DNA from: Diphasiastrum complanatum
Taxonomy: Eukaryota; Streptophyta; Lycopodiopsida; Lycopodiales; Lycopodiaceae
Length of the DNA: 64,000 nt
Reading direction: 5' to 3'
NCBI GenBank assembly: GCA_029204225.1
Contig: CM055095.1
Span: 21,557,252 to 21,621,251, forward strand
Position 1 is the first letter of the stretch, and each line of letters starts with the position of its first letter. The position numbers and the translations under genes were made by a program. The notes beneath the pieces are model-generated. The model did not search any database, was not told where the DNA came from, and saw nothing but the letters and a program-made list of their open reading frames with translations. Positions 2,889-33,440 of this stretch are shown piece after piece.

Positions 2889-3375
2889 TCATCTATTATG
2901 AGAGCATCCTGCAATAGGAAATATGTTAGCAATAAAGGATGATGCAAAAGGAGGGTCAGCAACAGAAACTTCCTCATCATCTAGGATCTGAACTAATAGA
3001 AAAAGTACGAAATCACTCTGATATTCAACCAATCGACATTTCTTGTTGCAATAAGGACATAGTGAACTGCTTCTGAAAAGATCAAACAATTTGGTAAACA
3101 TTCTATCCAGTCTATGTCTGAAAGCTGGGAAGAAATGAACAAGCTCAATATAATGCATGTACTGGAGTGAACCTATGGAGAAAACAAGCTTACTAAGTAT
3201 ATCTCTGAATCTAACATAATGTTCATAAAAAATGTCAGAATTTGGTTGTGCAGTCTTGAAAACATGTAGATATGGCCTGAATAGGCTGTGGAAGTAGTCT
3301 AGGTTTTCAGTAATCCCAAATCCACTAAGAAATGAACTCAAGCCTGAATCTCGTGAGGATCCTAAGGAAGAGGCC
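2889..3375 (-). pseudogene. Gene C copy 1 (C'), truncated H2B-like histone-fold candidate
   Basis: This is a degenerate paralogue of gene C at 13,846-15,326. Both share the block LDRMFTKL, then CP..NKKCR.V..QS.FV.FLL, about 60 residues later than a SxFLSxFG start segment. The predicted start, equivalent to the ATG of the other copy, is changed to ATC near 3,375, and the open frame extends back into the leader, so this is probably not functional. The shared block resembles the C-terminal half of the H2B fold ([21 protein letters not shown]), but the match is weak. The acidic and C-terminal parts found in the longer copy are absent. A TATA element with an upstream G-box lies at about 3,604-3,630. 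It is transcribed away from gene A copy 1 through a shared spacer. Confidence 0.6.
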
Positions 3376-4198
3376 GTGGAAGTAAAGTGAATATCGCGCT
3401 TGTGCGCCAGGAAGAACAGAAACAAAACTACTATATCAAGATGGCGCACAAGAGGGATATATACGACAGGCAATACCGAATATCGCACTTGTGTGCAAGT
3501 AGGTGTCGTTGAAAGCAAACGGACAACAATGCACGCGCACAAGGGTGACATGCTGTGAATTTCGATAACGAAAAAGGTAAAAAAATTAATCGGTTCTCGT
3601 GCCATTTATACTACATTTTTGCACGTGTGGTCAACGGTCAATGGACACATGTCTACTTTTGATTCAACTTCAGGCACTGGCACACCTGGACACATGTGAA
3701 ATGACACTTGGACATGTGTCGCATGTTCATTTGTTTGCTCGACAACATGTGTCGCTCTCACATTTGGTCATACGAATCCCACACGTGTAAAGTCACAAGG
3801 TGACACATGTCACTCTCTCATTTGTCCGTACAACTCCCACGTGTGATAGGACGTCCTTTCGCACGTGCAAACCGCGATATAAAATCACAAACTTCGATGA
3901 ATTTTTTTCACTTTTTTTTTCGCTCCGCATATCACACTTGTGCGCGTCCTTCACAATCCAAAATTCCACCTACAGCCTTCCGTGTGCACAAGTCCGATAC
4001 ATCTGCCTACGTGTCCCCCCCGTATCGCACTTTTGCATCTTTATTCAAAACTAATTGCTCTCTCTTATATTCAACTCCCACAGATCCGATATAACGTACA
4101 TTCTGTTCATACATATCGGTCCTCTATGAGATCTTTATCATCCTTCCCTGCTCATCCTCGCCGTCACGCACAAGTCCGCTATTGCATAGTACACATCC
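3376..4198. promoter_or_regulatory. Divergent promoter between C' and A' (module copy 1)
   Basis: The spacer separates two divergent genes. Each side has the same core layout. For C' (minus) a CACACGTGCAAAA element is followed by TATAAAT at 3,604-3,630. For A' (plus) CGCACGTGCAAA is followed by ATATAAAA at 3,861-3,884. Between them are many ACACGTGT or ACACATGT words, which are G-box-like. Both leaders also repeat a short word such as ATATCGCRCTTGTGCGC or its reverse (for example near 3,392, 3,478, 3,930, 3,983 and 4,021). The promoter role is inferred from position and from conservation with 12,380-13,845. Confidence 0.65.
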
Positions 4199-4995
4199 AT
4201 GGATAGGAGAAAGCAGACAAGGAGGGACTTCTTCTCTCCTGGCTCATCCTCAGCCCCTGCGGTTGTCATTTCACCTCCTGCTAGACCTAGAATGCGCAAC
4301 CGCAGCAGGTGGATCTCTGAGATACGCAAGTATCAGAGATCAATTGCTCTGTTGATCCCAAGAGCTCCATTCTATCGTGATGTCCGAAACATAACAAGAA
4401 ATGATCTTGGACTGCTGGTCAAATTTACACCCAATGCTCTTCAGTGCCTTTAGGAGGCTGCTGAAGACTACCTTAGCCTTTTTTTTGAAGATTCATTTTT
4501 GCTTGCCATCCATTCCAAGAGAGTCGCCATAATGCCCAAGGATTTTCAGCTCCTGATGAGAATGAGGGAGAGGTTCTGCGGGTTACACGTATCTCAACCT
4601 GCTGCTCCCAGACCAACTCCTCTAGATAGGACTGATCTTCCTACGAAGCGTCCTAGGAAGCAGACAACCCCCAAGAGAGCTCCAAAGAAAGTAAAGAGGG
4701 TAGACACCACAGATTCTGTGAGATCTGACCCGGAATCAGTTGTAGATGATGCTGTTGTTGATAATGTTGTAAATATAGCTACATCTGTTTTGGATACCCC
4801 TTTAATTACTGTAGATACTACACATCCACCTCCTCCTCCTCCTCCTCCAAATTTTTATACATATATAGATTCGGATGATTATCTTAAATTTGAGAAAGAC
4901 ATATCCGATGCTATAGATACAATTGGTACTACTTTTTATTTTAGACTAGATGAACTTGATTTTAGTAATTTTAGAGGTCTAGATTGGAGTATCAA
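4199..4995 (+). pseudogene. Gene A copy 1 (A'), N-terminal part: histone H3-like domain plus linker
   Basis: The frame begins MDRRKQTRRD, which follows the H3 tail start (MARTKQTARK), and then has an H3 fold: EIRKYQRS for the alpha-N helix, LLIPRAPFYRDVR for alpha-1, [21 protein letters not shown] for the end of alpha-2, loop 2 and the start of alpha-3. Loop 1 is one residue longer than in canonical H3. A TAG at 4,451-4,453 replaces the Gln codon expected from LQEA in H3, and the same frame continues open after it. The fold is followed by a Lys/Arg/Pro-rich linker ([16 protein letters not shown]), an acidic stretch and a proline run. Gene homology stops near 4,995, where copia gag sequence in reverse orientation begins. 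The missing rest of the gene is found in reverse orientation at 27,910-28,871 (see findings). Confidence 0.85.
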
Positions 4996-5842
4996 GATGG
5001 ACTCCATCCTCAACTTCCATATTGAATAATTGGAAGTAGACAATCTCTCACTTGGTTGCAACAAGTATGAACTCATTGAAGTCATGTAAAGTGGAGATAA
5101 ATAAAAGTGATGAACAAAAAATGTTGCTTCTCTCTCACTATAGGATCCAATAATGGTGTGCTACCATCGCCTATGCAAGATCTTGCAACAAACTGTGAGA
5201 TGATTCTCACTAGCTATCTCAATCTCTCCAAAACTAGATCTACTTCACATCAAATGATGGAGTATGGGCAAAGTTAGAATCAAACACTCTTAGCACATGT
5301 GAAATACACTAATAAACCAAATTTGACACAAATACAATGATATTGCATGAAACAAAATGGCTAAGATCTCAAAATCGTGCCTAGATCACATATAGATGAG
5401 ATTGGTAAGCATTCAACTGTGATTTTGGATCAAACAAGCAATCTTTTGACCAAACCAAATGTGTCCACCCAGATCTAGGTGCCCTACCTAACCCTCTTCA
5501 AAAGCTTATAACTTTTGATTGGCTCAACCAAATGGAATGAAACTGATTGCATCAGAAACTAGACAAAAATAGCTTCAAAACAAGCTATCTAGCAAGATTT
5601 TTGGATCAAACATGAAAGAGAACTCCCAAACTGAAATTGGATGTTCCTCACACGTGTCTGAGCTTTTGATTCCATACAGTACCAGGTCAGACCCAATCAA
5701 TGTCCTTTTGATCTCTTTTGATCCAAAATTGAACAAGATAGCTAGGAAAATGGGCCTTGACAATTTCTAGCTCAAGATTGATGAATAGTTTTCACTCAAA
5801 TGGATCAAAATGCATGGTAACCTTAGGTAGGCTCTGATACCA
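4992..5842 (-). mobile_element. Copia-1, 5' internal part: primer site, leader and start of gag
   Basis: On the minus strand the sequence runs from the LTR end through a primer binding site at 5,830-5,842 (TGGTATCAGAGCC, complementary to the 3' end of initiator tRNA-Met), then an untranslated leader. A gag start codon is at 5,085, and its N-terminus contains [16 protein letters not shown], a typical copia gag opening. Gag breaks off at about 4,992. The continuation is at 28,872 on the plus strand. The open frames on the plus strand here are not genes. Confidence 0.85.
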
Positions 5843-6662
5843 TGTTGAATTACACACGTGTGGATTGTCCACTACATGTACTTGTGATCTCCTAAGGTGT
5901 GTAGATGCACCAAGATCAAGACAAGATTGAGATTCAAGATCTATCTTTGATTCTATGGCAAAAACACACTACTACATGCATTCAATCACTTCCAACTCTC
6001 ACTCACACGTGTGGGAAGTGTTCCAAAAGTATTCTAAGTAAAAACAAGTTGCTCTCCTTGGGTAGAGAGAGAAAAACCATCATGAACTCTCGGGTAGAGA
6101 GAGAAAGCTAGAAATTCAATGACACTCAAAATCCACTCAATCTCAAAATCAATTAGATCCAAAAGGAGGAGTACAATGATACTAATAGATTCATGAGCTA
6201 CCACTATGCTTAACTATGATTGGATCACACTTTGCCACCTCTTAATCCTATTGGACCATTGATCCATGCACCTCTAAATTCTATTGGACTATATTCAAGC
6301 ACACCTCAATTTTCTATTGGACCTCACAAGGTTCCACCTCTAAATCCTATTGGACCTCTTAAGCTTCATCAAACAAAAGCATAACACTTGTCTACACTCT
6401 AATTGGCACAAGTTTGGCTCTATTTTGGCTCAATATTGGCATTACAAGTGGAAATGGATAATTTGCCATCTATGCCAAATTTGACCCTATCAACATCCTA
6501 CACCTAAATGCTTGACTATGAAATTCTATGAGACCCCTATATCAAACATTTTGATTTACTTTACAATTCTCCACACGTGGGAACATCCTCCACACATGTG
6601 AGATTCACTTACAAACTTCTATCATAAAAAATACCAAGCTAGATTTTTGCCAATTTCTCACA
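5843..6662 (-). repeat. Copia-1 5' LTR (inverted), 820 bp
   Basis: On the minus strand it starts TGTGAGAAATTG and ends AATTCAACA, next to the tRNA-Met primer site. It matches the 820-bp LTR at 31,470-32,289 with only a few differences seen by eye, so the insertion is young. The flank outside its TG end reads TTTCA, the same five bases that follow the other LTR. Confidence 0.9.
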
Positions 6663-8185: not shown

Positions 8186-8396
8186 CAAAACCGTACAAGT
8201 ACCTGGAACTGCTACTAGTTGTCATTAGAGAAACTTAGAGCCCGACGAGAGCCTTTGAAAAAGATGTTTTTTTATTTTTTTTTCTTATTTTTGTTGGCAT
8301 GTGGACCAATTGAAACCTTAGCTTCGGGGTTCTATGTAATGTAGAATTTTCCAAATATATATAAAATAAAAACTTTTTAAATATATTGTTGTTTCG

Positions 8397-8460
8397 TCGG
8401 ACAGCATGTGGAAATGCTATTGGTTGATGAGGCCTGCCCTTCCAGCTCATCACTGTCCGA
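8397..8460 (+). promoter_or_regulatory. Inverted-repeat promoter element upstream of gene B
   Basis: TCGGACAG at 8,397-8,404 and CTGTCCGA at 8,453-8,460 form an inverted repeat around ATTGGTT (a reverse CCAAT box). The same arrangement lies at 26,088-26,131 upstream of the other gene B copy, and little nearby sequence is conserved. It is about 240 bp from the start codon. A protein-binding site is inferred. Confidence 0.5.
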
Positions 8461-8702
8461 AGAGACCCAAAAATATTGAAAATGAATATGACAGATGGTT
8501 GAGAAGAGAAAATCGATGTACCATTAATGTATATGCATTGTCAAACCATGGTTAACAGGGATAACCAGAGTTAATTTGTGGTGCCAAATAGATCAGTGTT
8601 TCAAATTTTTGCCAACACTTTTTCTCAGATTCATGGCTTTTTGTCTACGCAAATTTTCAGATTCATAGTTCATTGTTTCAGATTTTTGCATGCAAATTAC
8701 GA

Positions 8703-10180
8703 ATGGCGCCATCAAGGAAGTCGTGCTCCTCAATCGACTCTGTGCTTCTATTCAACGAGACAGATAATAATGGATTATGGGTGCCAAGAAAATATTCAAA
8801 AAACTCCTGGGTTTTGATACATCCATCATCAAGAGGAGCATTTCAAAAAAGAAAAAAGGTGAAAACTATCATTTCGATCTTATTGGAAGGCCAAAATTTT
8901 GGATTTCAGAACATCATCAAGAGGAAAATCTATTTTTGAAATTCTAGTCCAACATGTATATATGCATTCAGAGATAAATGTGCAAAGATTCAACCATCAG
9001 GATCACAAAAAAAACAACTGTGAGTATTGATATTTTTGATACTTTGATTTTTGTCATTCATAAATATCTAATAGTAAACTTGCCAATCTGATCATTTTTC
9101 TCTTGCAGATTTATATCCATCCAACATAAATGAATGAGAGCCGAGTGGATCTTTAGCAAGTGTGTTAGATGTTATTCACACTGATATTGGACAGCTGCAA
9201 TATCGAGGTAGAACTGCAAAAGATCTAGCTGATAGTGGAATCTTTTTTTATGAATCAATGTACATTCCTGATACAAAAGGAAATTTTGGACAAATAGTAC
9301 CAATTCCATTACCTAGTTTTGAAAGTGATGAATGGATTGCACCAGCTGCTACAGTTTCAGAATCATTTCGTTACAAGATATATAATGATGTAAAAAATTC
9401 ATTAAAAATGAGCACGAGATCGAAAACAGGCAGATTGAGTTGGTTTATTTCCTTGAATATATTTGTGAATTTCCTTTCAAGTGTCAATATTCACAAAACC
9501 CCAACGATGTTTGTATGCAAAAATTTAGCAGATAGTTTATTATCTGAACTTATGGATAAAGGCTGGGACAAAAGATCAGATGGAGAAATAGAATACAGAA
9601 TTAAAATGTCTTCCATGTGCTTCCATTATCAAATTGAAAAACAAATGTTAAGCTTATGCTTCCATTATCAAAGATGGAAAAAAAAATAAAGGTAAATGGG
9701 TGCCACTCGATCAAGACTTGGAAGCAAGTGGACATTCAAAACGAAAAAATATTGAAATTATATAAAATGATGTCGTTTTGACATGTGTTGAGCTGGAAGA
9801 AAATTGGAGTCTAAACTACATCCGGCGGGAACTATTGCTCCTACAAGATGATGTACTTTCGGACTTCAGATTCATTTTCAATGGTAAACTCGTAAGTAAC
9901 TGTAAACACTTGATCTTTTATGAATAGTTTCAATCAAAACTTTCTAATACAATTTTGTACTAATTCTAACTAACTTTGTATTAGCTTTATGCAGGTACAT
10001 AAAAGACATGAGCTCGAGATCAAATGCAAAGATATTGACGAAACAATCCAACTTATGGAAGAACACTCAGATTCACTATCAACAAACACATGCCAATCAT
10101 CATGTCTTTTTATCATTATAGAAAAATTGCATTCCATTATTAGACTATGGACACAAGCTGATTGTAAGAATCTATTGTGA
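8703..10180 (+). pseudogene. Gene B copy 2 (locus 8.7 kb), unknown protein, broken
   Basis: I do not recognise this protein. Comparison with the copy at 26,346-27,715 gives three exons: 8,703-9,019 (donor GTGAGT), 9,109-9,891 (acceptor TTGCAG, donor GTAAGT) and 9,995-10,180. The intron positions are the same in both copies. Shared segments are KNSWVLIHPSS in exon 1 and LQYRGR, FYESMYIP, PLPSFESDEW, SWFISLNIFV, FVCKNL and IEKQMLSL in exon 2. The predicted product is about 390 residues with no visible signal peptide or clear membrane span. Defects here are a frameshift within exon 1 near 8,860, TGA for a conserved Trp near 9,147, a frameshift in the A-run near 9,680 and a TAA near 9,762. It converges on gene A, whose stop is about 90 bp downstream. 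Confidence 0.7.
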
Positions 10181-10270
10181 TATCAATATAAAACAACCCA
10201 TAAACGGGTTGTTTACAAGTAAAATGATTGTATCTTTTTTTTTTATGTCTCTCTATTTACAAATAGATCT

Positions 10271-12379
10271 CTATTCAATCAATTTTTCTATATTTTCTAT
10301 TTCAGTATTAGGAACTGATAAAGCAACAGCTCCTTCTATAATCTCCCCCTCCTCTATTTCGGGAAGGGCCTCAATGCCTTTTAAGACAAGAGGAATATCT
10401 GCTACAAAATTGCCTTCCTCTGTATTAGGAAGGACTTTTATTTTTTTTTGATCATATAAAATAAGATCTGCATCTTGCACAACCTGAAAGGCTGTTAAGA
10501 TAGGAGCATATTCCTTTTGAGGGCCTTCGATTGCAGGTGCAATGCTTACACCGTACTGGGCAAAGGTTCTGATCAACTCTAGCCGAAATCTATATACATC
10601 ATCAAGAGTATACGACTCAAGAGTGAACTGTCATCACAAAACACGAGAATCAGCAAATTACAAACAATGATAGTAATAAAATATGAATCAGAATGAAATG
10701 AACTACAAATGAATAGAATATTGTCTTTTCAATATCTACGTCCATTAGTAAATTATACCATTCAAAAAATAACTTCGTATTGTATAGGACGAACCATGCA
10801 CAACTAAAAGCGTCATTCTGTTGTACACACTGCATATAGAGAACAAAAATTAGTAATATTATGATAGAAATTTTATTTATGTTATGACGATACATTTGAT
10901 TTAAGAAAAAAAATACATGCATATCAGAGATAAATTGAATATACCTTCAGAGATTTGATGGTTATATCTCCAATTGAAATTGCCGTTGTCGGTACTTTTC
11001 GAACGACATCATGAAGTAGAGAATCAAATCCTCTATGTGTATTTGCAGCTGAGTTTAATTTTACACATAGAAAATTTGATACTCCCTCCTTATTTATCTT
11101 TACAAATAAATGTTTAGGCTCCAATGCCGACTGCAACAACCAAGATACAAATATCGATAAATCCATATTTATGAAAAATTCCGTTCTTATTAACATAATG
11201 AGGCATGCAACAATTCAGAATAAAGCAACAAAAACAAAAGAGCAATCCCTACTTATTTTTATATGGAATCAAATAGAATTTCGCCATAGGACTGCACTCG
11301 ATAAAATAGACAGTCTTCTCAAAATTGGCTTCTTTCGCCTTTACCGCTCTTATGAAAAATGGACTAACTACAAAAACTGTACCATGAGAATCGAAACTAA
11401 TACTATTATGCAAAAATGAAACACTGGCCTCTACTATTGCATCTGAAATTTCTGAGGTCTTATCTTTAAGCTCGGCACAAAATTTAGGACCTAATCTAAA
11501 ATTTCTATGTGTATTTGGAAGAAAAAAATCAAAAAGTTTGTCGAGAAGATCAATTTTGTTAGCTAGGTAGGTCTCGTATTGATTATAATGGTCAGAATAA
11601 AAAAAAATCTGGGCTGGATCGTATGAAATTCTCACAAAAAGATTATGTACATGAGGGGTAGAAAGAGAAGTGAAAACATTATTTACAGATTTCTCTGTTA
11701 TTTTGTCTAGATCCTCTTGGGTAATCAACAATTTTGGTGATGAAACCTGCTGAGGAATTGGACGAATAATAGGAGGAGGACTGGGTGAAGATTCTCGATC
11801 TGAGTCAGATTCTCCAGTCATCTGACTCAGAGCTCAGGATGACACGGGGTCTTTTGGTAGGGATACGTCTAGGAGGAAGGGAAGCAGTTGGCCTTCGAGA
11901 TCCAGCCTTCTTGGGAACAACCTGCTTTCTCTTCCTCCTAGAGGTAGTAGGCATGTCGGTTCTATCTAGAGGCATGTTTCTGGAGGTGCTGGCATTATCT
12001 ACATGCAGACCAGAATATCTGTCTCGAAGCCTTTTGAAGATGACGAAATCCTTTGGCATGATGGTGACACGCTTACCATGCACTGCCAAAAGCAAGTATC
12101 CTCAAAAAATTGGGACAGAAAATCTTCTATAGCACCTTGCAAAGCCTGCATGGCTGTTACAGCAAAACGAACATCAAGCCCAAGTGACGGAGTGACATTT
12201 CGGACAGATCGACCGAAAGAAGCTCTAGGGATCAACAATTCAGTTGATCTCTGGAGTTTTCTGATCTTTGTAAGCCAAACCTGCTTCCTGCCACGCCTAC
12301 GGCCAGTACCAGGGGGAACACGGGAATGGGATGGCTATACAGTGGTGATGGCACGGGCGGTGGATTTAGTCCTGGCCAT
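10271..12379 (-). pseudogene. Gene A copy 2: histone H3-like domain fused to Ulp1/C48-like protease, broken
   Basis: Four exons can be read on the minus strand: 12,379-11,253, 11,130-10,945, 10,829 to about 10,728, and 10,629-10,271. The start MARTKSTARAIT copies the H3 tail. The H3 fold follows (KIRKLQRSTELLIPRASFGR, QFFEDTC, LLAVHGKRVTIMPKD), then a basic linker and an acidic stretch. The protease part begins with ISDAIVEASVSFL, continues through VFVVSPFF and FYLIPYKN, and crosses an intron into RHWSL with the catalytic His at 11,126-11,124. It ends with QQNDAFSC, whose Cys is at 10,802-10,800. This is the order and spacing of Ulp1 desumoylases. The usual catalytic Asp position reads LNS, so Asn replaces Asp. 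Breaks: TAG at codon 15 (12,337-12,335), a frameshift near 12,085, another near 11,815 and one near 11,115. The predicted intact protein would be roughly 600 residues and nuclear. Confidence 0.85.
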
Positions 12380-13845
12380 CATTCTCGGAAGAAGAAAATC
12401 AACAAAAAGAAGTTTGAAATAAACAAAAGTGGATCAAAACAAAAAAATTTGCGACAAATGGGAGCTTGAGATCGATACCAGCACTGAATATCGGTTTCGA
12501 GCACAAGATCTATAGAGATTATATGTAGAAAAAGATGTGCGCTCGAAAGCGATATTGCACAGCAGGCGGTATCGAACTCAAGCGCACTGTGAGAGAGCGG
12601 AAGCCTGAAGGATGAAAGAGCACGCTTGAGAGCGATATCAGGAGCTAAAAGCGAGAATTTTGCAAAAAAAAATAAAAATTTCGAGGGCTTATATATACGA
12701 AATTTTTGTACGTGTGAAAAGACGGTCGAGACACATGTCGTCAGATGATTAGACCACGTGGAATGTCCGTACTGATTATGATATACCAATTATGAGGCCA
12801 CGTGGGCTGAGACACGTGCGCGAATCCCTGATCGATGCGTGTCATTCTCGCACGTGACAGATGTCAGATCTATCCTTTTAGGTACGACGCATTTATTTTG
12901 CCAATCAAAAGTCGACACGTGTTCCTTCGTCACTTTTTCACACGTGCAAAATAATTTTTATAAATAGATCTTTTTGGGAACGAATTCTCATGCAAATTCA
13001 CGTTTGCTTTGTCGGATATCGATTTCAAGCGCGCCGCTTGCTCTCATTACAACTCGTTGGCTATTATGCGCCTGGATCCGATACTGCATCGTATGGTATC
13101 GCATTCAAGCGCATCTCGCATACCTTTTCTTTTCTGGTCATTGTTCTTGCGTTTGGATCTGATACTCCAACTTCAAAAATCTCTCTCGAGCGTTCGTTGA
13201 TTGGACGTGCTTGTCGAACCAGGGGTTTACGCCTGAGAGCGATATCTTTGTTTAAAATGTCTAATTTTGAATCCAGTTTAGTTTCTTTTTTTAATGAATT
13301 TTTGAGACACGTGTCGTCTGATGATTAGTCCACGTGAAATGTCTATACTGACAATGATGACCAAATTATAAGGACACGTGGGCTGTGACACGTGCGCGAA
13401 TCCCTTGACGACGCGTGTCCGTGATAGATGTCAGATCAATCATTCAAGGTACGATGCATTTATTTGGGCCAATCACATGTCGACACGTGTTCCTTCGCCA
13501 CTTCTCCACACGTGCAAAAAAATTTATATAAATAGGTATTTTTCGGCTCAGATTTTCACGCAAATTTATGATTTCTTTGTCGGATATCGATTTCAAGCGC
13601 GTCGCTTGCTCTCATTACGTCTCGTTGACTATTATGTGCCTGGATCCAACACTGCATCCTCCGGTATCGCATTCAAGCGCGTTTCGTATCCCTTTTCTTT
13701 CCTGCTTGTTGTACTTGCGCTTGGATCCGATACTCCAGCTTCCAATATCTCTTGCGAGCGCACGTTGCCTGGACTTGCTTGTCTGACCTGGGGTTTGCGC
13801 CTGAGAGCGATATTTGGAACTTCAGTTCTGTTATTTTTGTTTAAA
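12380..13845. promoter_or_regulatory. Divergent promoter between gene A and gene C (module copy 2)
   Basis: The spacer drives A leftward and C rightward. The A side has CACACGTACAAAAA followed by TATATATAA at 12,690-12,718. The C side has CACACGTGCAAAA followed by TATAAATAG, present twice (12,939-12,968 and 13,507-13,537) because of a 576-bp tandem duplication. CACGTG cores are frequent. Both leaders repeat a word close to GATATCGATTTCAAGCGCG (for example 13,014, 13,096, 13,583, 13,665, and in reverse near 12,569). The layout matches 3,376-4,198, which supports a conserved bidirectional promoter. Confidence 0.7.
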
Positions 13846-13879
13846 ATGTCAAATTTTGAATCCAATTTGGTTTCTTTTT
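12728..13879 (+). repeat. 576-bp tandem duplication of the gene C promoter and 5' end
   Basis: Unit 1 begins at 12,728 (gagacacatgtcgtc) and unit 2 at 13,304 (gagacacgtgtcgtc). They share G-boxes, the TATA element, the leader words and the first 15 codons of gene C (ATG at 13,257 in unit 1, at 13,846 in unit 2). Unit 1 is cut off at MSNFESSLVSFFNEF, where unit 2 begins. By eye the units are roughly 80-85% identical, so the duplication is not recent. Confidence 0.85.
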
Positions 13880-15326
13880 TTAATGAATTTGGTAATACTA
13901 ATAGGTATTCTACCTTCTACAACTGAGGGCCCTGGTGTGGAGGCTGTTTCTGAGATATATCTCAGATTTAAGTCCTTGTTCAATACTCCGTTATTCAGGT
14001 CTCAGAATAAAGACATGATTCATTATCAGGACTTGGTGGCACTCGATAAGCATATCTATAAAGCTAAGCTTGATAGAATGTTTACCAAGTTACATAATGA
14101 TTTCAAGTCTGTAGATGAGTGTCCAATTCATAATAAAAAATGTAGATTTGTTGATTTTCAGTCTGCTTTTGTTTTTTTCCTTTTGTTAAATATTTCTAAC
14201 GATTTGGACTCTGTGCCCTCCACTTCTAAAGCAGCTTCTTCTAGTGGTACAAAGTCTAAAAAGTCAAAGATTGTAGATATAGAAACCTTTTTTATTGATA
14301 CGAGTGTTGATTTAGATGATTGTTCTGAATTTGATCCTACTCGAAATAGGTCTACCTTTATAGGCCCTAGAACACCCACCACCCTTTCTCCTTCTGATAA
14401 ATGTTTGATCACTTTGCCTACTTATAATATAGATAATAATTTCTTTTTGACAATGTCGGATATATTGGATCTTTTTTACTTCACTGAAGTTGAGACTCTT
14501 TGTATTTTGAGCAAAGAGCTTGATGAATTTTCGGATATTATTGATTTTGATGCTGATGATCTTCTCCTTGGTGTTGACGATGTACATAATGATAGATTTT
14601 ATTCAGGGAAAGATTGCTTGAAAATGGATGTGGAGGAAATGCGCAACAAAGAAGATGATCTGCCTTCTGAGGAGGAGTTTCTTAGAATCCAAAGTCAACT
14701 TAAATTTCCACAGCCAACTGCCTATTCACCAACAATATTGACATCGAAAGGTGGACATAATATTGATGGTGAGACAGTAATCAAAGAAGACAAAGCCGAA
14801 TGTGTAAGTTTTTGTCTCTTATCAAGTACTAGTAGATTTTTTATGTCAGATTATATACTGGAGCTTACTTTGTTTTTTATCATTTCAAAAAACAATTTTC
14901 CTTGATGATTGCGCAATTCATCGAGGAGGGCAAAAATCTTCTGCGGGAGAATTTTCAAGAGATCATGCACTCGGGCACTATCTAAAGTCCTTCAAGAATA
15001 ATGAGATAAGTGTTGCCCATTCAAAGTTTCATCAACATGGTGAAACTATGATTATGGCAATCAAGGCACTGTCTCATTTTCTTGGAGGACATAATTTTAA
15101 TAAGGTGCATAAAATAATTTTTGTAAAGAAAACTATTGCGGTTAAAATTTTAGGATATGGACCAGTGAATTCCATGTTCAGATTATCTCATTTTGCAGTG
15201 TGTGCTGCTTACGTTGATCTTAGTAAGCATGAAAACTATGAGCTATTGGATCCATACGAAAGAAAAAAATTGTTGCATGATTCTAAGTTGCAACTTTCAT
15301 TGGAAAAAATATTGGAAGCAGATTAG
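13846..15326 (+). pseudogene. Gene C copy 2: divergent H2B-like histone-fold candidate with long C-terminal part
   Basis: The start is ATG 13,846 (MSNFESNLVSFFNEFG), chosen because it follows the TATA element and is kept in the upstream duplicate. A frameshift near 13,900 shifts to the long open frame that runs to a donor GTAAGT after 14,803. That frame holds SEIYLRFKSLF, then LDRMFTKL, then HNKKCRFVDFQSAFVFFLLL. These lie in the order of H2B segments SIYVYKVLKQ, VNDIFERI and [20 protein letters not shown], but identity is low. A KSKKSK basic patch and a long acidic region follow. Later coding blocks lie at about 14,905-15,104 and 15,154-15,326, with an uncertain acceptor and phase between them. 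Gene D converges on its 3' end. A histone fold is inference; a different function is possible. Confidence 0.6.
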
Positions 15327-15386
15327 ATACTGCTGAATTGTACTTTGTAAATATTTTTATTTAATATACAAAATTTTATTGTGTGT

Positions 15387-18068
15387 CTATAGCCTACTGG
15401 CTTGTATAAATTTGCATGCTTTTTGAAATTTTTTATAATCCGTCAATTTTGTATTATGACGAATTTGGATTCTTCTGTAAAACCATTGAAAAAGTTGCAG
15501 TATATAGCTGTTTTTTGTGCTAGTCCCGCCATGTTGTGTACTTTTATGAAATGCCGCTCTTGCTTGCCAATGAGATTTTTCCATTCCTTGCGATGACCAT
15601 ATTCTAAGACTTCCACTATTTCTTGCAAAGAATGTCGAATGATGTCGTAATATGTGCTGCATGTCATAAAAACACAATCTAAATCAGTAACAAAAGTATC
15701 TAATTTAATTGCACATATTTGTCTATGGTAGTGTAAAATCAAAATCTTACCATATAATGTGTTATATGATCAACACCCCATGCACTCTGAACTGCATCCA
15801 CAAATTCATTGGTTGTTTTCTGTATCATTTGAACATCAGTATTTGAAAATTTATTTTTTCTCAAGTATTTCACCATGTTGTCTAACTTTTTTCAAACTTC
15901 TACTTTGTGTATACGAGTAGAACCTTCTTCTTCGAAATCTTGAGTTGCTGCAATAATTTCTTTCCAAACCGTGTATTGAACCTTAAACTGTTTGCCAGAA
16001 TAATTTGATAAAAATCTTCGAGCTTTAAATCCTCCAATGCTCGGCTTGCATGGAATATTTCATGTTTTACCTGATAAATTGTCATCTTTTTTTATTTTAA
16101 CGTGGCCTTTATGTAAGCTTGCTTTGGACAACACATCCTCTCATCTGGAAATAGCTTCCTTTGCAGAGGCCTCTGGCTCGGAATTCCATGCAAACAAGAT
16201 GTGAAGATATATTATTTTTTCTATAATACGCACCTCTGCATGCAATGTACAGATATGAACATTTCGTAGAGTAATCGGTAGTACAGGTTTCCAATTAGGA
16301 TCTTCTCGATCTCTTGATATTCATGTACTCCTTGTCATGTCTTTTGCTATTTTCATGCAGTACAAACAAGGGTGTTTAGAGTTGGCGCCATGAGATACAT
16401 TGAACATACATTTTAATGTCTTTAAATCTTCTACTAGATGCCATTCAATGTTGAAAGTGCCAATTCTAGGAATATTGAGTGGAACTCCCTCCATGTGATT
16501 TTTTATGGTGGCAAGATATAAATTTTCTCTTAAATATCCATAAGAGAATGTTATGGTCTTCTTTCAGCACCTATAAAAGAATACAAAAACGTGATTAGCC
16601 TCGTAATATTAACACAGAGAAGATTTTAGATATGAAATCCATATTCAAATTATTATCCCTATTTATTATGCAAAGGAACTGCTATACCTGAAATGCTGCC
16701 AACCACCAGATATCATTTTCTGATTGAACACTGAAATTGAGGCCTTCTGAGTCCTCTGAATTTGAAAGTGCTCCATTCATGATTGTGAGACTGACTCTTT
16801 TCATTTTTTGTCCTTTTATAATTTTAGACTCATCTAACTTGAGAACAACTATCAACTTATTATTGACATTCTCATTTGTAGTACCGTAAAAATCTATGAT
16901 GAATGTTAATAACTGATTAATGTCAATAAATAAATTGTTGGAATTGTTATATGCTAGACTTTCTCCTTTCGAGCAATAGACTTCATTGATATGAGATGGA
17001 TTACCATGGAAACTTTTTAATATTTACCTGTGCAAATGCCTCCTTTATCATCTTAAACATTGTTGCATATGCTTCCCTACTGATGCTAGAAAATTCACAT
17101 GCCCCTGAAGCAATGTAGTGTCTAATATTTTTCCAACTTCATCCTTAATGTTATCAGTAACTGAAGCCTTAATCTTTTTCATTTTGTTATTATTTAACAT
17201 TGATTTCATAGATTTAGAAGTCAAGATAGAGCCTAGTGAGTTTCCAATTGAAATCTCATCGATCAAATGGTCTTCAACCACAATGCTGATCTGCATTGCA
17301 AACATAATGTTCATGAAAATCTCACTAGAAATTAGGACACTCATAGTATTCACAACAGTATATAATAAGCAAATCAACAGAAAGTTGAAATGCATAAATA
17401 ACAAAATTAGTGATTATGAATAAATCAAAAAGTTCAAGCAATTTTTAGTACCAAATAAGCTATAACTTGAATGTACGGATTCGTCTTTTTCTATGACCTC
17501 CTCTAGATGATAGATCACATATATCCTTGTTTACCAGTCTTTTCCTCTTGTTGCTTTGGACCTTTCTGTTGAGCACATCCATATCTTTAACAAGAGACAA
17601 ATATGAGATACGCATGGATTGAAATGCAATTTTTATCTCATCATTACTAGTTGTATAATGATGCAAAGAAGATTTCAACCTTTGGATCTCCTCTTTGAGC
17701 ATCTCATTTTCATCCAAACAAGTTTTTATCTTTGTAGATTTTTCTTCGCACTCCTTTGATATTTTCCTTAATTCCTCTTCCAAATAATGTATTCTTTGCA
17801 TTGAATGTGCATTCCCATAGAGCATCAAATTCTCACAGTAACCAAAGAGGCCATTTTTACCATGACACATATAGATTATTAACTGACTCACCGAATGAAA
17901 ATCTGGATGTTGCAATGAACATGGATCAATAGGATACAATGTTCGTGATGACCATAAATCTACATGTTTTAGCTTTTCCTCCCTATATCGGACCATATCA
18001 CAAGTTGACAATTTGGGTTGCTTTGAATTTCTTGTCCTGAGCGGAGCATATTCTGGTGACAGATCCAC
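15387..18068 (-). pseudogene. Gene D: multi-exon unknown protein with coiled coil and C-x2-C segment, broken
   Basis: Minus-strand exons I can trace: 18,068 to about 17,470; 17,290-17,028; one ending at 16,688; 16,570-15,751; and about 15,700-15,387. Exon 1 encodes a heptad-rich segment (YLEEELRKISKECEEKSTK) and a basic end with RKRR. Later exons carry NNKLIVVLKLDESK, QSENDIWWLAAFQ, FNIEWHLVEDLKTLKC, ANSKHPCLYCM, HICTLHAE, GGFKARRFLSN, HITHYM and QGMEKSHWQARAAF followed by TQHGG and LQLFQWFYRR. The dense Cys/His/Trp pattern suggests one large conserved domain, perhaps DNA- or repeat-related, but I cannot name it. Frameshifts near 17,115 and 15,585 and stops near 16,325, 16,145, 16,065 and 15,882 make this copy non-functional. 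It converges on gene C. No copy of D is seen next to C' in module copy 1. Confidence 0.65.
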
Positions 18069-18170
18069 ATGAAGATGATAAAGCTTTGTTATCAGTACAG
18101 TAGTATAGTAACAAACAACACAATGACAATAACAAAACTAGAGATGGCGCTAATGACTCTGTTGGAGATA

Positions 18171-18365
18171 GAGATGGCGTAGGCTTTCTTCAGAAATGTC
18201 ACTTCTAATTTAAATTTTTGAGTGTTCCCAACTATTGGGAGGGAATATTTCAGCATTTTAAAAAATTATATCTTAACTATGGTTAAACACTAGTGAATTT
18301 TGATGTGACTAAACTAAGGTGCATTCATTTACATGGAAAGTAGTGCGGGCAGATGCGTAAAGAAG
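18171..18365 (+). repeat. Dispersed 195-bp repeat, copy 1
   Basis: It begins GAGATGGCGTAGGC and ends GCAGATGCGTAAAGAAG, and matches 50,887-51,082 along its full length in the same orientation at roughly 85-90% by eye. It includes gagtgttcc, attgggagggaatat and tacatggaaagtagtgcggg. No terminal inverted repeat is obvious. It sits upstream of gene D; the other copy sits upstream of the BELL gene. Confidence 0.75.
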
Positions 18366-19199
18366 TTAGAAAATGATATTATAATTACTTTATAGTTATT
18401 TTTCTCTCTCCTACATGGCATTTCTTATAGGGCCCTCTTTGGGCCCATATTTTTTCTAATGGTTAGTCAACTGCTTGGATGGTGTTAGAGCCAAAAAATC
18501 AGCATACAAACCTACAAAACAATTTCATAACAAAAACTCATACAACTATTGTCTCATGGGAAAATCATAGAACTACTCATCATAATTGAAGATTCTGCTC
18601 AAAAAAACAACTAAGCTTCACAAATGTATCATAAAATTTACATATTTGTCATTGGAAAGCTCAAAAAGACATGTAAAGGGAGGTCGGAATAGCCCTCAGA
18701 ATAGACACTAGTATACTGTTAAAACCAGCATGGTCTATTCCGACCTCCATTCCAACCCTGAAAGTATCTCTGAGATCTGCTATAGAATTTGTGCCTCAAA
18801 TGCTATGATGATGATCAGCCCAGTAACCAATAATGAAACCTGCAAAACAAAAACCAGTATTGTAGTTTGTTAAGTTTATTACCACAAAAAATAATTGTAA
18901 CAAATTAATTTTACACAAAGAACAACAAACATCCATATGGAATTCTGTGTATGCACCAAAAAACTAGATGTCTAGTTGATGAATAAGGATTTGGCATTAG
19001 AATAGCCATTGGAATAGGCGCTGATTTAACAAATCCCATAGATCCGTCATTATTTTTTGCGGACAGAAGTTGGTTCTTCGGTGAGTTCTAATTTGCAAAC
19101 CACTTTGTATTGCTAAAAATCATGATTGCACGTTCCTTTGCAATGTATGTTGTTTGGCGCCCTTTCTGATTGAAGGAATATTCTGTTATTCATGACTAT
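18366..19199. other. Intergenic with a short perfect hairpin
   Basis: The only structured element is a perfect 14-bp inverted repeat, GGAGGTCGGAATAG at 18,679-18,692 and its complement at 18,735-18,748, with a 42-base loop. It could be a small non-autonomous element. No gene is supported. Confidence 0.5.
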
Positions 19200-26345: not shown

Positions 26346-27715
26346 ATGGCAAGGAGACCCAGATCTACAATCGAGTCTGTGATTCTTTACAATGAGAAAG
26401 ATGAAGCTGATAACTGGAAGCCAACAAAATATACGAAGAACTCATGGGTATTGCTGCATCCATCATCAAAGGGCAATTTTCAACAAAAAAAAAGCGCAAT
26501 TGTGACTTACAAATCTTATTGAAAAGCAAAAATTTTAGGGTTTAAGACTACCCTGGGAGGTCAATCTATATCAGAAGTCTTAGTACAACATGTATATATG
26601 CATTCAAAAATCAAAGTACACGATATCAATCCTCATGATCATCAATGTAATTGTAAGTATATTAAAACATATGCACTCTATAGCAATCATAGGTGATTTT
26701 CTTTATTGATGCTCTTCAGATTATGATTTAAATACTTCAACATTGTTTTTTTCTTTCAGATTTATATCCATCATGCATAAGTGAATGGGAGCCCGCACAA
26801 TCACTTGCAGGAATATTAGATGTGATTCACTCTGATGTTGGAAAGCTGCAATACAGAGGAAGAAGTCCAAAGAAACTTGCAGACTGTGGTATCTATTTTT
26901 ATGAATCTTTATATACGTCACAAACAGATGGAGGTTTTGGCAAGCTCAAAGCAATTCCATTGCCTAGTTTTCAAAGTGATGAGTGGCCTACTCCTGACAA
27001 CATTGTTTTTGAATCCTTGAGATGCAAGCTACTCATTGATATTAGAAATGCTATGAAGATAAGCACAGGCTCAAAAATTGTTCACCTAAGTTGGTTTATC
27101 TCATTACATATATTTGTTGATTTTTTCTCGAGTGCTAGTGTTCGTAGGAGACCAACTTTATTTGTTTGCAAGGATTTATCATATGAGACTTTGTCAGATC
27201 TCATGGATCAAGGCTAGGATAGTAAAACAAATAATGACATAGAATGCAGGATTAAAAGGTCCTCAATGATCTTTCGTTATCATATCGAAAAGCAAATGCT
27301 TAGTCTCACATTTAGCTACCAGAGATACAAGAAAATTGAAGGTACATGGCTACCACTGGATCAAGACTTTGAACTAAATGGTCACACAAACCGAATGGAG
27401 ATAGGCATTATCTACAATGAGAAATGTTTGACTATGGTTGAGGTGGAAGAGCATTGGAAGTTTGATTTTATCAGAACAGAGCTCATGTTATTACAAACCA
27501 ATCTACCAACATATTTCAGATTTATCATCAACGGAAGACTCGTAAGTACTTTATGTTTATTGCCATTTCAAAATAGAACAAAACAATAGAAAATGTCATC
27601 ATTTACAATTGCACATTCACTAATATTTGTCATGTCACAGATGCGAAAAAGACAGGAGCTGATAACGTGCTGCAAAGATCTACCTACAACAATCACCATT
27701 GTGGGAGAACAATAG
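26346..27715 (+). pseudogene. Gene B copy 1 (locus 26.3 kb), unknown protein, broken
   Basis: This is a paralogue of the gene at 8,703-10,180 with the same three-exon structure: 26,346-26,652, 26,760-27,541 and 27,641-27,715. It begins MARRPRSTIESVILYNEKDE. Conserved segments are KNSWVLLHPSSKGNF, SEWEPAQSLAGILDVIHSD, LQYRGRSPKKLADCGIYFYE, HLSWFISLHIFV and FDFIRTELMLLQ. Defects are a frameshift in the A-run near 26,490, TAG replacing a conserved Trp near 27,217, and an earlier stop than the other copy. It converges on the gene A fragment at 27,910. I recognise no domain. The well-kept splice sites show that this was once a spliced, translated gene. Confidence 0.7.
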
Positions 27716-27909: not shown

Positions 27910-28871
27910 TTAATTTAGTATAATTACATCATCCTTTGCACCATCATCAATAACGGGAGGCTGAAGCCTTGCCCTAGCCAGTATACTCAAGATGATTTCT
28001 TGTCTAAATCTGTACACTTGACTTGATGTGTACTCAGGAAGTGTAAACTGCAAAATAGAACATTCATGTATTAGTAATGGCTAAAGACATCAACAAAATA
28101 AAAAACTAATTTTGATTCCAAAATAAGAATAAATAGAATTTATTACCATAGAAATATCAACATCTTGTTGAAGGTTGAACCACTCAAAAAATAGCTTTGC
28201 ATTGTATAATGTGTACCAACCACAGCTGAATGAATCATTTTACTGGGGTGACTGAAAAATAATTCAGCACACAAGAAATCAATTATAAAACAGAATGAAT
28301 TAGAATGAAACAATTACATTAGAATACTGATTTTAAAATGCTATTAAAAAAGACAGAGTGTACCTCCAAATTGACGATCTCCCAGTCCACGGAATGGGGA
28401 ACATCTGTAGGAATATATTTACTTAGATATGGAAGATATATATCTACATCCTTATGCGTGTTTCTCGCCGAATTCATCTTGACACAAAAACCTTTAATAC
28501 TATTTTTTACAGATCTCTTAATAGAGATCAGGTTTAAACTCCAATGGTCACTGCAAAATAAGATTGAAAGTTCTTTAGCGGCAATTCTAAGAACTATTTA
28601 AATTGACAATGCCAATGTTAATGCATAAAACAACAACAAGCATTTAATATATCTTACTTGGTATGATAAGGGATGAGCAGATACTTTGTTGCTGGTGTGA
28701 ATCCACTTGTCAGACACTATGACAATGTGTCATTATTCTCCTTGAAGGCCTGAAGCAGAAAGTTACTCAGCACCAGCAACTCATTGGATGAATCTCTTGC
28801 AATGTCATATTGCAAGAGTGTCAGCCCAGACCCTATCACAGGATCACTGATAGAAGCCCGTCTGTCTTTGA
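27910..28871 (-). pseudogene. Gene A copy 1, C-terminal part: Ulp1/C48-like protease domain
   Basis: Four exon pieces align with gene A copy 2: 28,871-28,658, 28,550-28,364, 28,251-28,147 and 28,047-27,910. The first ends KYLLIPYHT and splices in the same phase into NDHWSLNLISIK (catalytic His at 28,546-28,544). The third contains NDSFSCGWYTLYNAKLFFEW, with the catalytic Cys at 28,224-28,222. Its usual Asp position is Asn (KMNS), as in the other copy. A TAA replaces the second Gln before the Cys, and a stop lies near 28,725. The upstream end at 28,871 abuts copia gag, so the H3-like half is missing here. That half is at 4,199-4,995 in the opposite orientation, and the two join in frame. Confidence 0.82.
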
Positions 28872-31469
28872 GATGATGTGATGGACATTGTACTTGGGAT
28901 TGAGGAGGAGCCTCAAGTCCTTCAAGAAGTACAAAAATACAAGAAGAGAGCTAGGATGGCTCTCCACTACATTAAGATGAATGTCTCTAATGAGATATTG
29001 AGGGAGATTGGTGATTGTTCTACATCCAAGGAAGCTTGGGATTGTCTCAAGTCCATCTATGAGGCTAAGAACACCTCTAGGCTCCTCACTCTTAGAAATC
29101 AAATATTCCAAAGTAGTCAAAAGAGTGATGAGAGTGCATCTAATTATGTTTTGAGAGTCAAGGATATTCATAGGGAGCTTGCATGTATTGGTGACTCAAT
29201 CAATCAAAGTGAGCTAGTCCAAGTCATTCTCAATGGCTTGAGAGATGAATATGACAACCTTGTCCAATCCTATGCTATTAAGGAGGAGCTACCAAGTTTG
29301 GAGGCCCTTCAAAGTGTGCTTATTTCTGAAGAATCAAGACAAGAGTACAAACTCTTGAGGATGGACAAGCTATCACTCAATCATGATGATGGCAAAGTTC
29401 TATTTTCCAAGCACAAAGAGAGGAGTAAGAAGCAACACCATCACTTCTCTAATGACAAAGCTAAAGACCAAGATGGAGAGGAGGAGGATACCTCTCATGC
29501 TTCTAATTCAAATCTCAAGAAGAAGATGATCAAGTGCTTTTATTGTGGCAAGAAAGGCCATTATGCCACCAATTGCTTCAAGAAGAAGAATCAACTCAAT
29601 CAAGCCAACATCACCAATGAGAAAGAAGACTATATTGCAAGTGATGGAGAAGGCTCTCTTATGGCATCAAGCTTCTCCTCTTCCACCTTCAACAAGGATG
29701 ACTCATGGTATATTGATAGTGGAGCATCTTCACATATGTGTGGCTCCAAGCACTTTTTTTCATCTATTATGCCTTATGGAGTCAAGAAGACCATATACTT
29801 TGCAAGTAAGCATGAGTGCAATATTGAAGGAGTAGGGATTATTCCCTTGAAGCTTGCATCTTCTAAAGATCTCTTTCTCAACAACGTTCTTTTTGTCCCA
29901 AAGCTTACAAAGAACATCTTAAGTGTTGGCCAACTTCTTGATAGTGGCTTTGATGTCAATTTCAATATTGACAATTGTGTGATTAAGAAGGATGGTGAGA
30001 TCCTTGCATATGGATCAAGATTTGAAGGCATCTACAAATTGGATCCAAGTGAGAGTGCAAACTCTCTTGATGTTTCTTATATTTCCAATATTTCAAAGGA
30101 GGAGGATTACACAAGATGCACATATCTTCTCTCTTCAAGTATTATGGTGTATGATTATCCCTTATTATTCAAAGCATATGTTGAGAAGAAATTCTCATTG
30201 AAGATCAAAGCTTTGAGGAGTATTGGAGCTCTTGAAGGAATAGCAGCATATGAAGTTTTATTCAAGATGAAGCCTAAGGTTGATCACCTTAGTGAACTTG
30301 GTAGTGCTTGCTTTGCACATATTCCCTTGGAAACAAGAAGGAAGGATGATCCAAGCTCATGGATCATGATTGGATACTCATCCATCAAGGAGGCCTTTAG
30401 TGTCTTTACACTCTCTATTTCAAATGTGATCGTGAATAGAGATGTCATATTGCACGAAGATTCAATCTTGGAAGTGGCCGAGATCAAGGCTTCTCAAGAA
30501 GCATCACAAGTTATCCTTTTTGAAGGTATTCAAGTTATGATGGGGCCAATGTGTGAGGAGGAGTTTCTTCTTCATATGATTTCAAGAAGATCTTCAAGAT
30601 GCATGGCCGAGTCTTTATGGCTCACCTTACATGGCAAAGAGGGGCATCTTTCATGTTGTATCTACTACAACACATTCATATATGCTTCTCTTCCTTTGCT
30701 TGAAATGCTATCTTGCTTCATTGAATTTTTTGGATCTCAAAGTTCAAGAAAAGCTATACTAGTTTTGTATGATGCTTATGGTATGGACATGTTTCTTGTC
30801 ATTATTGACTTAGATGTGTTTCCAATCCTTTTTGAAAGCAAGATATTGTATTGTCAAAAGTATGCTCTTGGTTCTAGTAAGAACAAGATTGAGCTTGGTA
30901 CTCACTTTTTTGAAAATCATGTTTTCACATGTTTTGAGGCAAATTGTAAACTCCTCTTGAGATTAAGTGAAGCATCCAAAGTGGACACTTACATCCTTGA
31001 GAGAGTAACTAGCCTAAAAAAGATCAAGATAGTCTTTGATATCAAGATTAGATCCATCATGGATATAGTTCATTGTATGTGGACTAGTCAAGCTAGAAAG
31101 CATAATCTTGATAATCATCATTGTTTCACATCTTATGATCTTGATCTCCATAATTCTTATGAGGCTTGGAAGCCTCAGATTTCTCTATTTATGGTGCATC
31201 CATCATGCAAGTGGAACTTTCAAGGCAAAGATCATCATCAAGCATGGAGGAAGCCCATGATAATAGTGGCATATTGGTGGAGCACTCTTCAAAGGCATTG
31301 GCAAGAGATCTCTACCAAAGAGATCTTATCATGGATATGGTGAGGGTGCTGCTATGATGGATCCCTTGGCTGATCTTCACTTCTTATGCATACCAAAGGA
31401 TCCACTCAAAAAGATTTAAAAACTTCTCAAGTGATCTAGTACCTTTCCAAGCTATTTTTTGAGGAGGAG
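28872..31469 (+). mobile_element. Copia-1 body: gag-protease ORF with atypical remainder
   Basis: An open frame runs without a stop from 28,866 to 31,343 (in-frame ATG at 28,878). It starts inside gag (VLGIEEEP, with the UBN2-type stretch through SRLLTLRNQIF), then has a zinc knuckle CFYCGKKGHYATNC, the protease site WYIDSGASSHMCG and a pre-integrase segment (LTKNILSVGQLLDSGF). It jumps to the integrase C-terminus (AYEVLFKMKPKV, then SSWIMIGYSS and NRDVILHEDS). The HHCC finger, integrase core, reverse transcriptase and RNase H are not visible. About 280 residues after that have no family I recognise. A purine tract (GAGGAGGAG) precedes the 3' LTR. It appears non-autonomous. The missing 5' part is at 4,992-6,662. 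Confidence 0.88.
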
Positions 31470-32289
31470 TGTGAGAAATTGACAAAAATCTAGCTTGGTA
31501 TTTTTTATGATAGAAGTTTGTAAGTGAATCTCACATGTGTGGAGGATGTTCCCACGTGTGGATAATTGTAAAGTAAATCAAAATGTTTGATATAGGGGTC
31601 TCATAGAATTTCATAGTCAAGCATTTAGGTGTAGGATGTTGATAGGGTCAAATTTGGCATAGATGGCAAATTATCCATTTCCACTTGTAATGCCAATATT
31701 GAGCCAAAATAGAGCCAAACTTGTGCCAATTAGAGTGTAGACAAGTGTTATGCTTTTGTTTGATGAAGCTTAAGAGGTCCAATAGGATTTAGAGGTGGAA
31801 CCTTGTGAGGTCCAATAGAAAATTAAGGTGTGCTTGAATATAGTCCAATAGAATTTAGAGGTGCATGGATCAATGGTCCAATAGGATTAAGAGGTGGCAA
31901 AGCGTGATCCAATCGTAGTTAAGCATAGTGGTAGCTCATGAATCTATTAGTATCATTGTACTCCTCCTTTTGGATCTAATTGATTTTGAGATTGAGTGGA
32001 TTTTGAGTGTCATTGAATTTCTAGCTTTCTCTCTCTACCCGAGAGTTCATGATGGTTTTTCTCTCTCTAACCGAGGAGAGCATCTTGTTTTTACTTAGAA
32101 TACTTTTGGAACACTTCTCACACGTGTGAGTGAGAGTTGGAAGTGATTGAATGCATGTAGTAGTGTGTTTTTGCCATAGAATCAAAGATAGATCTTGAAT
32201 CTCAATCTAGTCTTGATCTTGGTGCATCTACACACCTTAGGAGATCACAAGTACATGTAGTGGACAATCCACACGTGTGAAATTCAACA
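31470..32289 (+). repeat. Copia-1 3' LTR, 820 bp
   Basis: It begins TGTGAGAAATTG after a purine tract and ends AATTCAACA, and is followed by TTTCA (32,290-32,294). It is the same length as, and nearly identical to, the inverted LTR at 5,843-6,662. Confidence 0.92.

Positions 32290-33440
<1,151 letters not shown>

Follow-up and report, generated by a model that had tools for sequence, protein, structure and literature searches.

The window analysed here is a stretch of 64,000 nucleotides from Diphasiastrum complanatum, and positions below are those of the window. It contains two copies, of two families, of a gene (here designated H3-Ulp) that links a histone H3-like domain to a Ulp1-type (Peptidase_C48) protease domain. 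Copy 1 is a broken four-exon gene on the minus strand (12379–10271). Its translations give, in order, an MARTKSTAR start, the H3 fold, HGKRVTIMPKD, LIPY, HWSL and QQNDAFSC, which is the order of Ulp1. Exon 1 (11253–12379, minus strand) encodes the H3 tail and histone fold (about 12379–12003), a basic, serine-rich linker and the start of the C48 domain as far as KFYLIPYKN; the fold extends to HGKRVTIMPKDF and is followed by the linker. This exon was assigned from its translation, the Pfam Histone match and the relatives L064, L065, L066 and, in part, L067. Exon 2 (10945–11130, minus strand; HWSLN...VKLNSAANTH) carries the catalytic His and was assigned from its translation and from splice sites in L008, L009, L026 and L033. 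Exon 3 (10725–10829, minus strand; CVQQNDAFSCAWF) carries the Gln and the catalytic Cys, as judged from sequence, translation, Pfam and the splice sites of relatives. Exon 4 (10271–10627, minus strand) encodes the C-terminal region with an acidic tail up to the stop, consistent with its translation and with relatives. All exon borders of copy 1 were set on the window sequence using splice sites observed in relatives. The gene is broken by a stop in the tail and a frameshift in the fold (exon 1), a frameshift in exon 2 and loss of the third splice donor, downstream of exon 3.

Copy 2 belongs to the second family and is split over two distant places. Its H3-like part and linker (4199–4985, plus strand; Pfam Histone and homology) start with MDRRKQTRR at 4199 and contain one stop. 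On the plus strand the exon 1 match ends at about 4985; it is picked up again at 28872 on the minus strand, beyond a Copia insertion and an inversion. There the start of the C48 domain (28654–28872, minus strand) was recognised from L086, an uninterrupted family 2 counterpart. Exon 2 (28364–28549, minus strand; DHWSLN...VKMNSARNTH) and exon 3 (28147–28254, minus strand; QSPQ.NDSFSCGW, with a stop inside) follow by homology, and then the beginning of exon 4 (27913–28047, minus strand). A Copia-type gag-pol frame of 821 amino acids (28878–31343) is inserted in copy 2 and adjoins the resumed exon 1. The break is flanked by two inverted arms of 821 nt (5842–6662 and 31470–32290) that are 99% complementary. 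The earlier note had copy 2 spanning the inversion, and exon 1 indeed switches strand between these arms. We infer that a retrotransposon inserted into copy 2 and that recombination between inverted LTRs followed.

The N-terminal part is a histone fold nearest to H3. Pfam Histone matches copy 1 with E=2.9e-12 on a 72-aa piece (the piece past the frameshift is sub-threshold, at 0.016) and copy 2 with E=8.5e-22 when the stop is read as X. It also matches all four joined family 1 relatives (best 6.9e-23), the first joined member scoring 79.9 bits against a cut-off of 26.4. In a PDB search, H3.1 was matched at 2.3e-22, and the best 60 PDB matches listed are H3 proteins. The two copies described in the earlier note, each with an H3-type start, an H3 fold and motifs in Ulp1 order, are therefore borne out by the translations and by Pfam Histone in both. 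A structure model of the H3 part of copy 2 was poor, with mean pLDDT of 56.7.

The H3-type modifiable N-terminal tail is not conserved. Specifically, family 1 keeps only the MARTKxTA start, altered in some copies, and the family 2 tail reads MDRRKQTRRD. Between the families, the fold and the RV(T/A)IMPKD segment are conserved and the tail differs. Shared residues raised the possibility of a CenH3 origin. Identity over the fold is about 49–54% to H3 and about 44–50% to Arabidopsis CENH3, leaning slightly to H3. Loop 1, which is of interest as a CenH3-type feature, is not lengthened in family 1 and is one residue longer in family 2.

The C-terminal part resembles Ulp1-type proteases, more clearly in family 2 than by Pfam in family 1. 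The protease pieces of copy 2, joined by homology, match Peptidase_C48 with E=1.2e-11 and 45.3 bits, against a curated cut-off of 20.7. The Cys exon of copy 1 alone gives 0.053, below the Pfam cut-off. Two of the four joined family 1 relatives match, again below the cut-off (best 0.017; 15.1 bits for the first member), and with the E limit set at 10, two of three protease stretches from family 1 give a match. Thus, of the profile matches called for by the earlier note, that to the histone family was obtained for both copies and that to C48 for copy 2, the copy 1 family staying below the cut-off. The two families align across the whole protease domain with about 40% identity; His and Cys are invariant and Gln is kept, with a stop at one Gln position in copy 2 of the window.

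In a profile comparison, the HWSL and Cys motifs aligned with those of a host SENP8-like protein and of a SENP8 chain (probability 55%, E 1.2e-4). The best PDB match of a four-row protease profile was the Ulp1 protease 1euv, a weak match (0.018) aligned from the His to the Cys motif. An NCBIfam search gave no match. A genome-wide Peptidase_C48 search by single exons found three places, none matching H3-Ulp exons, because the domain of H3-Ulp is split over exons and such a search misses it. The usual catalytic Asp is absent at its place in the alignment of both families, and the residue preceding the Cys is Ser or Asn rather than Asp. As we read the alignment, the Asp seems to be replaced, and an invariant Asn in K-[LM]-N-S is its best candidate stand-in.

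The two parts belong to one gene. The genome searched comprises 1.74 Gb in 5,176 contigs, and in five copies elsewhere, from both families, one open exon joins the histone fold to the mid region; in all but one of the five it extends to the start of the C48 domain. Three of four family 1 relatives have an uninterrupted exon 1 frame, of 427 (L064), 394 (L065) and 397 (L066) amino acids, which leads from the H3 start as far as LIPYEN or its counterpart, in the stretch ahead of the catalytic His. In the fourth (L067), a frame of 438 aa stays open across the H3 fold and through some of the mid region before it diverges. In family 2, the frame of L086 is open from H3 to LIPYHT; its middle stretch reads in a different frame from copy 2 of the window, and the frame is thus open without giving an intact protein. 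L064–L067 were selected for long open frames, and L086 for its 471-aa frame. Three introns follow exon 1, with donors and acceptors alike in L008, L009 and L026 and with phase kept; L033 has lost two splice acceptors.

Loci picked by one part also carry the other. Among 30 loci picked by the mid region alone, the H3 part lies upstream on the same strand in 29, with exon 2 in all 30 and exon 3 in 26. Among 30 loci picked by H3 alone, the mid region lies downstream in 26, exon 2 in 25 and exon 3 in 24. Both sets consist of the best-scoring matches; the window copy itself and one nearly identical to it are present in each. The linkage of H3 and mid region is not due to chance, because 29 of 30 and 26 of 30 loci picked by one part carry the other. 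H3-like and Ulp1-type domains are linked, through a shared open exon and three further exons, in two deeply diverged families. The histone-protease fusion architecture is almost certainly real.

H3-Ulp is part of a larger element. In copy 1 the element occupies 8223–18461 on the minus strand (10239 bp), as defined by comparison with the C577 copy of 9920 bp and by the ends of five pairs. Its ends are inverted (CATTAGA...CTAATG) and read CATTAGAGAAA, from which the window copy differs once at its left end, and TTTCTCTAATG. Allowing up to three mismatches, the genome contains 1149 matches to the left and 1184 to the right end pattern, and none to the reversed patterns. The flanks differ among copies, except that L070 and L075, among ten right ends, have one flank in common. 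No clear target duplication was seen in five end pairs, two from whole-element homology and three paired by position and orientation, 8.5–9.3 kb apart, among the exact matches listed. The flanks of the window pair have 2 bases in common and those of two other pairs 1 base, which chance could give. Genome searches with the H3 part and with the mid region each returned more than 5,500 first-look candidates (150 scored, all matching), and the second-family query 7,291 (150 scored, all matching); these candidate sets overlap and are not copy counts. At two places (C1:47307936/47312569 and C5:2725139/2729771), one right-end and one left-end pattern lie about 4.63 kb apart in the same orientation, which suggests a derived or rearranged family.

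The element carries further genes. Gene B (region 13805–15323, plus strand) is divergent from H3-Ulp, and gene C (part, 9138–9686, plus strand) is convergent with it. Both have relatives in copy 2, at 2892–3605 (minus strand, 41% identity) and 26732–27586 (plus strand, 59% identity), respectively. A broken gene region, T/D (15390–18137, minus strand), contains candidate transposase pieces and a coiled-coil protein; genes T and D have no copy 2 counterpart within the window. The pieces of genes B, C and T/D that were scanned gave no Pfam match above the cut-off. The pieces of gene T include GANSKHPCLYC and SSQGMEKSHWQARAAFHKSTQHGG. One of them returned 10,568 first-look genome candidates (150 scored, matching), more than the H3 part, and a PDB search with a gene T piece gave a chance-level match only. 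Gene T may encode a transposase whose superfamily is unassigned. Between gene B and H3-Ulp lies a direct repeat (12900–13199 and 13468–13767; 84% identity, spacing 568), and doubled matches occur in other copies too. The repeat may be part of a common two-way promoter region.

The inverted ends and the high copy number fit the mobile-element origin that the earlier note had thought possible; its example, the MULEs, is not supported. Specifically, the element has inverted ends, a 9-bp duplication was seen in none of the five pairs, and no MULE transposase was detected in the gene pieces scanned. Membership in CACTA/EnSpm was rejected on the CATTAG ends, the lack of a 3-bp duplication in all five pairs and the lack of a detected CACTA transposase domain, and membership in fungal-type hAT on the lack of a hAT match in the pieces scanned and of an 8-bp duplication in the five pairs. 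These transposase scans used broken gene pieces, from which a distant relative could escape. The genome gave 37 chlorophyll a/b-binding matches, and among 14 control genomes Synechococcus elongatus alone gave any, which marks the host as a green organism; together with the genome size this points to a plant. It is very probable that the host is a plant and that the carrier is a high-copy mobile element. The reading of the element as an endogenous virus or another integrating genome is consistent with the absence of a clear target duplication in all five pairs and with the other genes matching no known family. It is very improbable: no viral protein was recognised, and defined inverted ends at more than 1,100 places each, with reversed patterns at none, fit a transposon.

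Fully intact H3-Ulp genes were not found among 64 overlapping loci (L004–L067), many of them overlapping or near-duplicate and four being the window's own copy or a near-identical one. All four exons are well covered in nine of the 64, each with one to five stops; about half end before or within exon 4, as do most of those picked by H3, so that intact copies may exist elsewhere. The earlier observation that the copies are broken thus holds for the window, and the search for intact members that it called for returned none among these loci. A codon-position test among family 1 copies gave no significant result (P=0.12 for the H3 fold, P=0.67 for the protease), using the 44 of 64 rows that remained after short rows and near-duplicates of more than 98.5% identity were dropped.

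Between the families, synonymous sites are near saturation, with pS of 0.66–0.71 in the tail, 0.71–0.87 in exon 2 and the rest of exon 1, and 1.07 in exon 3, which is short. In these comparisons, which involve five copies plus one short pair for exon 3, pN is 0.19 in exon 3 (87 sites, one pair of copies), 0.29–0.31 in the H3 fold, 0.37–0.45 in the linker, 0.47–0.48 in exon 2 and 0.54–0.57 in the tail. It is 0.45–0.51 in the mid region and C48 start, where the out-of-frame stretch of L086 inflates the mid-region value; the C48 start was therefore compared with the in-frame end of L086, and the linker comparison was repeated with copy 2 of the window. The latter gave a smaller gap between linker and fold (0.37–0.42 versus 0.30–0.31). 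Because pN is low where pS is near saturation, purifying selection most probably acted on the H3 fold and on the Cys exon once the families had separated. Constraint between families is only weak on the C48 start and exon 2. Both parts likely had a function in the past.

The reading that we prefer, a reasoned guess to which we give a probability of roughly 0.45, is that H3-Ulp acted as a chromatin-tethered SUMO protease. Specifically, H4, a histone chaperone or DNA would be the partner through which the H3 part brings the protein to chromatin. The protease part, once at chromatin, would remove SUMO or a related modifier. Local removal of the modifier would then relax the silencing of the element by its host, or aid its mobility. 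That the H3 part sat in or docked on the element's own nucleosomes, with the tethered protease stripping SUMO from silencing factors there, would make this a local, self-directed anti-silencing, a reading that we consider unlikely. Points against the SUMO protease reading are the apparent replacement of the Asp, the sub-cut-off C48 scores of family 1, the non-significant within-family test, the weak constraint on the C48 start and exon 2, the out-of-frame stretch of L086 with the smaller linker-fold gap obtained with copy 2, the poor structure model and the fact that no intact copy was found among the loci compared.

The C48 part could be a pseudo-protease that binds SUMO or another modifier uncut, in which case the protein would read the modifier at chromatin or compete with host proteases. 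The loss of the usual Asp in both families, with Ser or Asn before the Cys, is what such a protein might show, yet the His, Gln and Cys positions are kept, bar the one stop in copy 2, and exon 3 is the least changed part between families. Papain-type proteases use Asn as the third catalytic residue, so Asn in place of Asp is compatible with activity and need not mean a dead protease. We regard a pseudo-protease as doubtful. The H3 part could instead be a decoy or an assembly handle that occupies H3-H4 chaperones or steers integration to certain chromatin, the protease acting elsewhere; conservation of the fold and of RV(T/A)IMPKD, together with loss of the tail, is consistent with this role, which we hold to be rather unlikely.

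H3-Ulp could also be a functionless passenger, in which fragments of host H3 and ULP genes were copied along with the element (transduplication). Capture of gene pieces is frequent in plant transposons, according to PMC13317346 and PMC2528002, and the copies read are broken, with a within-family test that gives no clear constraint. However, the order of parts and the flanking genes B and C are common to two families near synonymous saturation, and both the H3 fold and the Cys exon have been restrained in amino-acid change. Passenger capture is thus improbable, more so than a pseudo-protease or a decoy.

Host-derived genes that influence silencing are known cargo of transposons, and the VANC/KIU genes of Vandal MULEs reportedly oppose silencing by a different route. 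According to PMC13317346, non-TIR MULEs contain Ulp1-bearing KIU genes, for which an anti-silencing role is reported. PMC2528002 describes ULP1-like regions in grapevine CACTA and MULE families, and PMC3538342 a fungal hAT transposon in which an H3-like gene forms an ORF of its own. No histone-Ulp1 fusion was found in the literature searched, which omits most subscription papers, so the statement of the earlier note that no described protein joins the two parts holds there, the parts having been published separately on transposons. What appears to be new, as far as the literature searched goes, is the joining of a histone fold to a Ulp1-type protease; transposon-borne Ulp1 in plants and a separate H3 in a fungus were already published.

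Each known system shares some features with the H3-Ulp element. KAONASHI/KIU elements, Vandal-type MULEs of Arabidopsis with similar ones in melon, rice and grapevine, are likewise high-copy plant DNA transposons with a C48 gene beside other element genes. In contrast, the C48 domain of H3-Ulp is fused to an H3 fold, and its element has inverted-repeat ends; neither a 9-bp duplication nor, in the pieces scanned, a MULE transposase was seen. Grapevine CACTA (EnSpm) elements are also plant elements of at least 10 kb with short inverted ends and a ULP1-like region, whereas the H3-Ulp element has CATTAG ends, a 3-bp duplication in none of five pairs, no detected CACTA transposase domain, and an H3 fold. 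The H3L hAT element of Pyrenophora tritici-repentis is likewise a DNA transposon and carries, besides an H3-like histone gene, an ORF of unassigned function. There, H3L is a separate ORF beside a hAT transposase in a fungus, with 26 copies in the reference genome, whereas the plant element has H3 fused to a protease and a far higher copy number. Cellular Ulp1/SENP proteases for SUMO and NEDD8 have the HWxL, Gln and Cys motifs in identical order; H3-Ulp differs from them in its N-terminal partner, a histone fold, and in the altered catalytic Asp position.

If the preferred reading is true, a histone-Ulp1 fusion under selection would give mobile elements a new means of acting on chromatin, and would offer a natural tool for probing SUMO removal at a chosen nucleosome.

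The same genome contains a third H3-like repeat family, which is stand-alone. Its example, L085 (C11:4816700-4818000), has a proline-rich N-terminus and ends with LARRLRRE and a stop. Of 6,095 candidates, 150 were scored, with 77–100% identity, and stops lie within the match in 34 of the 150 rows. With this third family, recruitment of H3-like proteins by repeats may have happened repeatedly.
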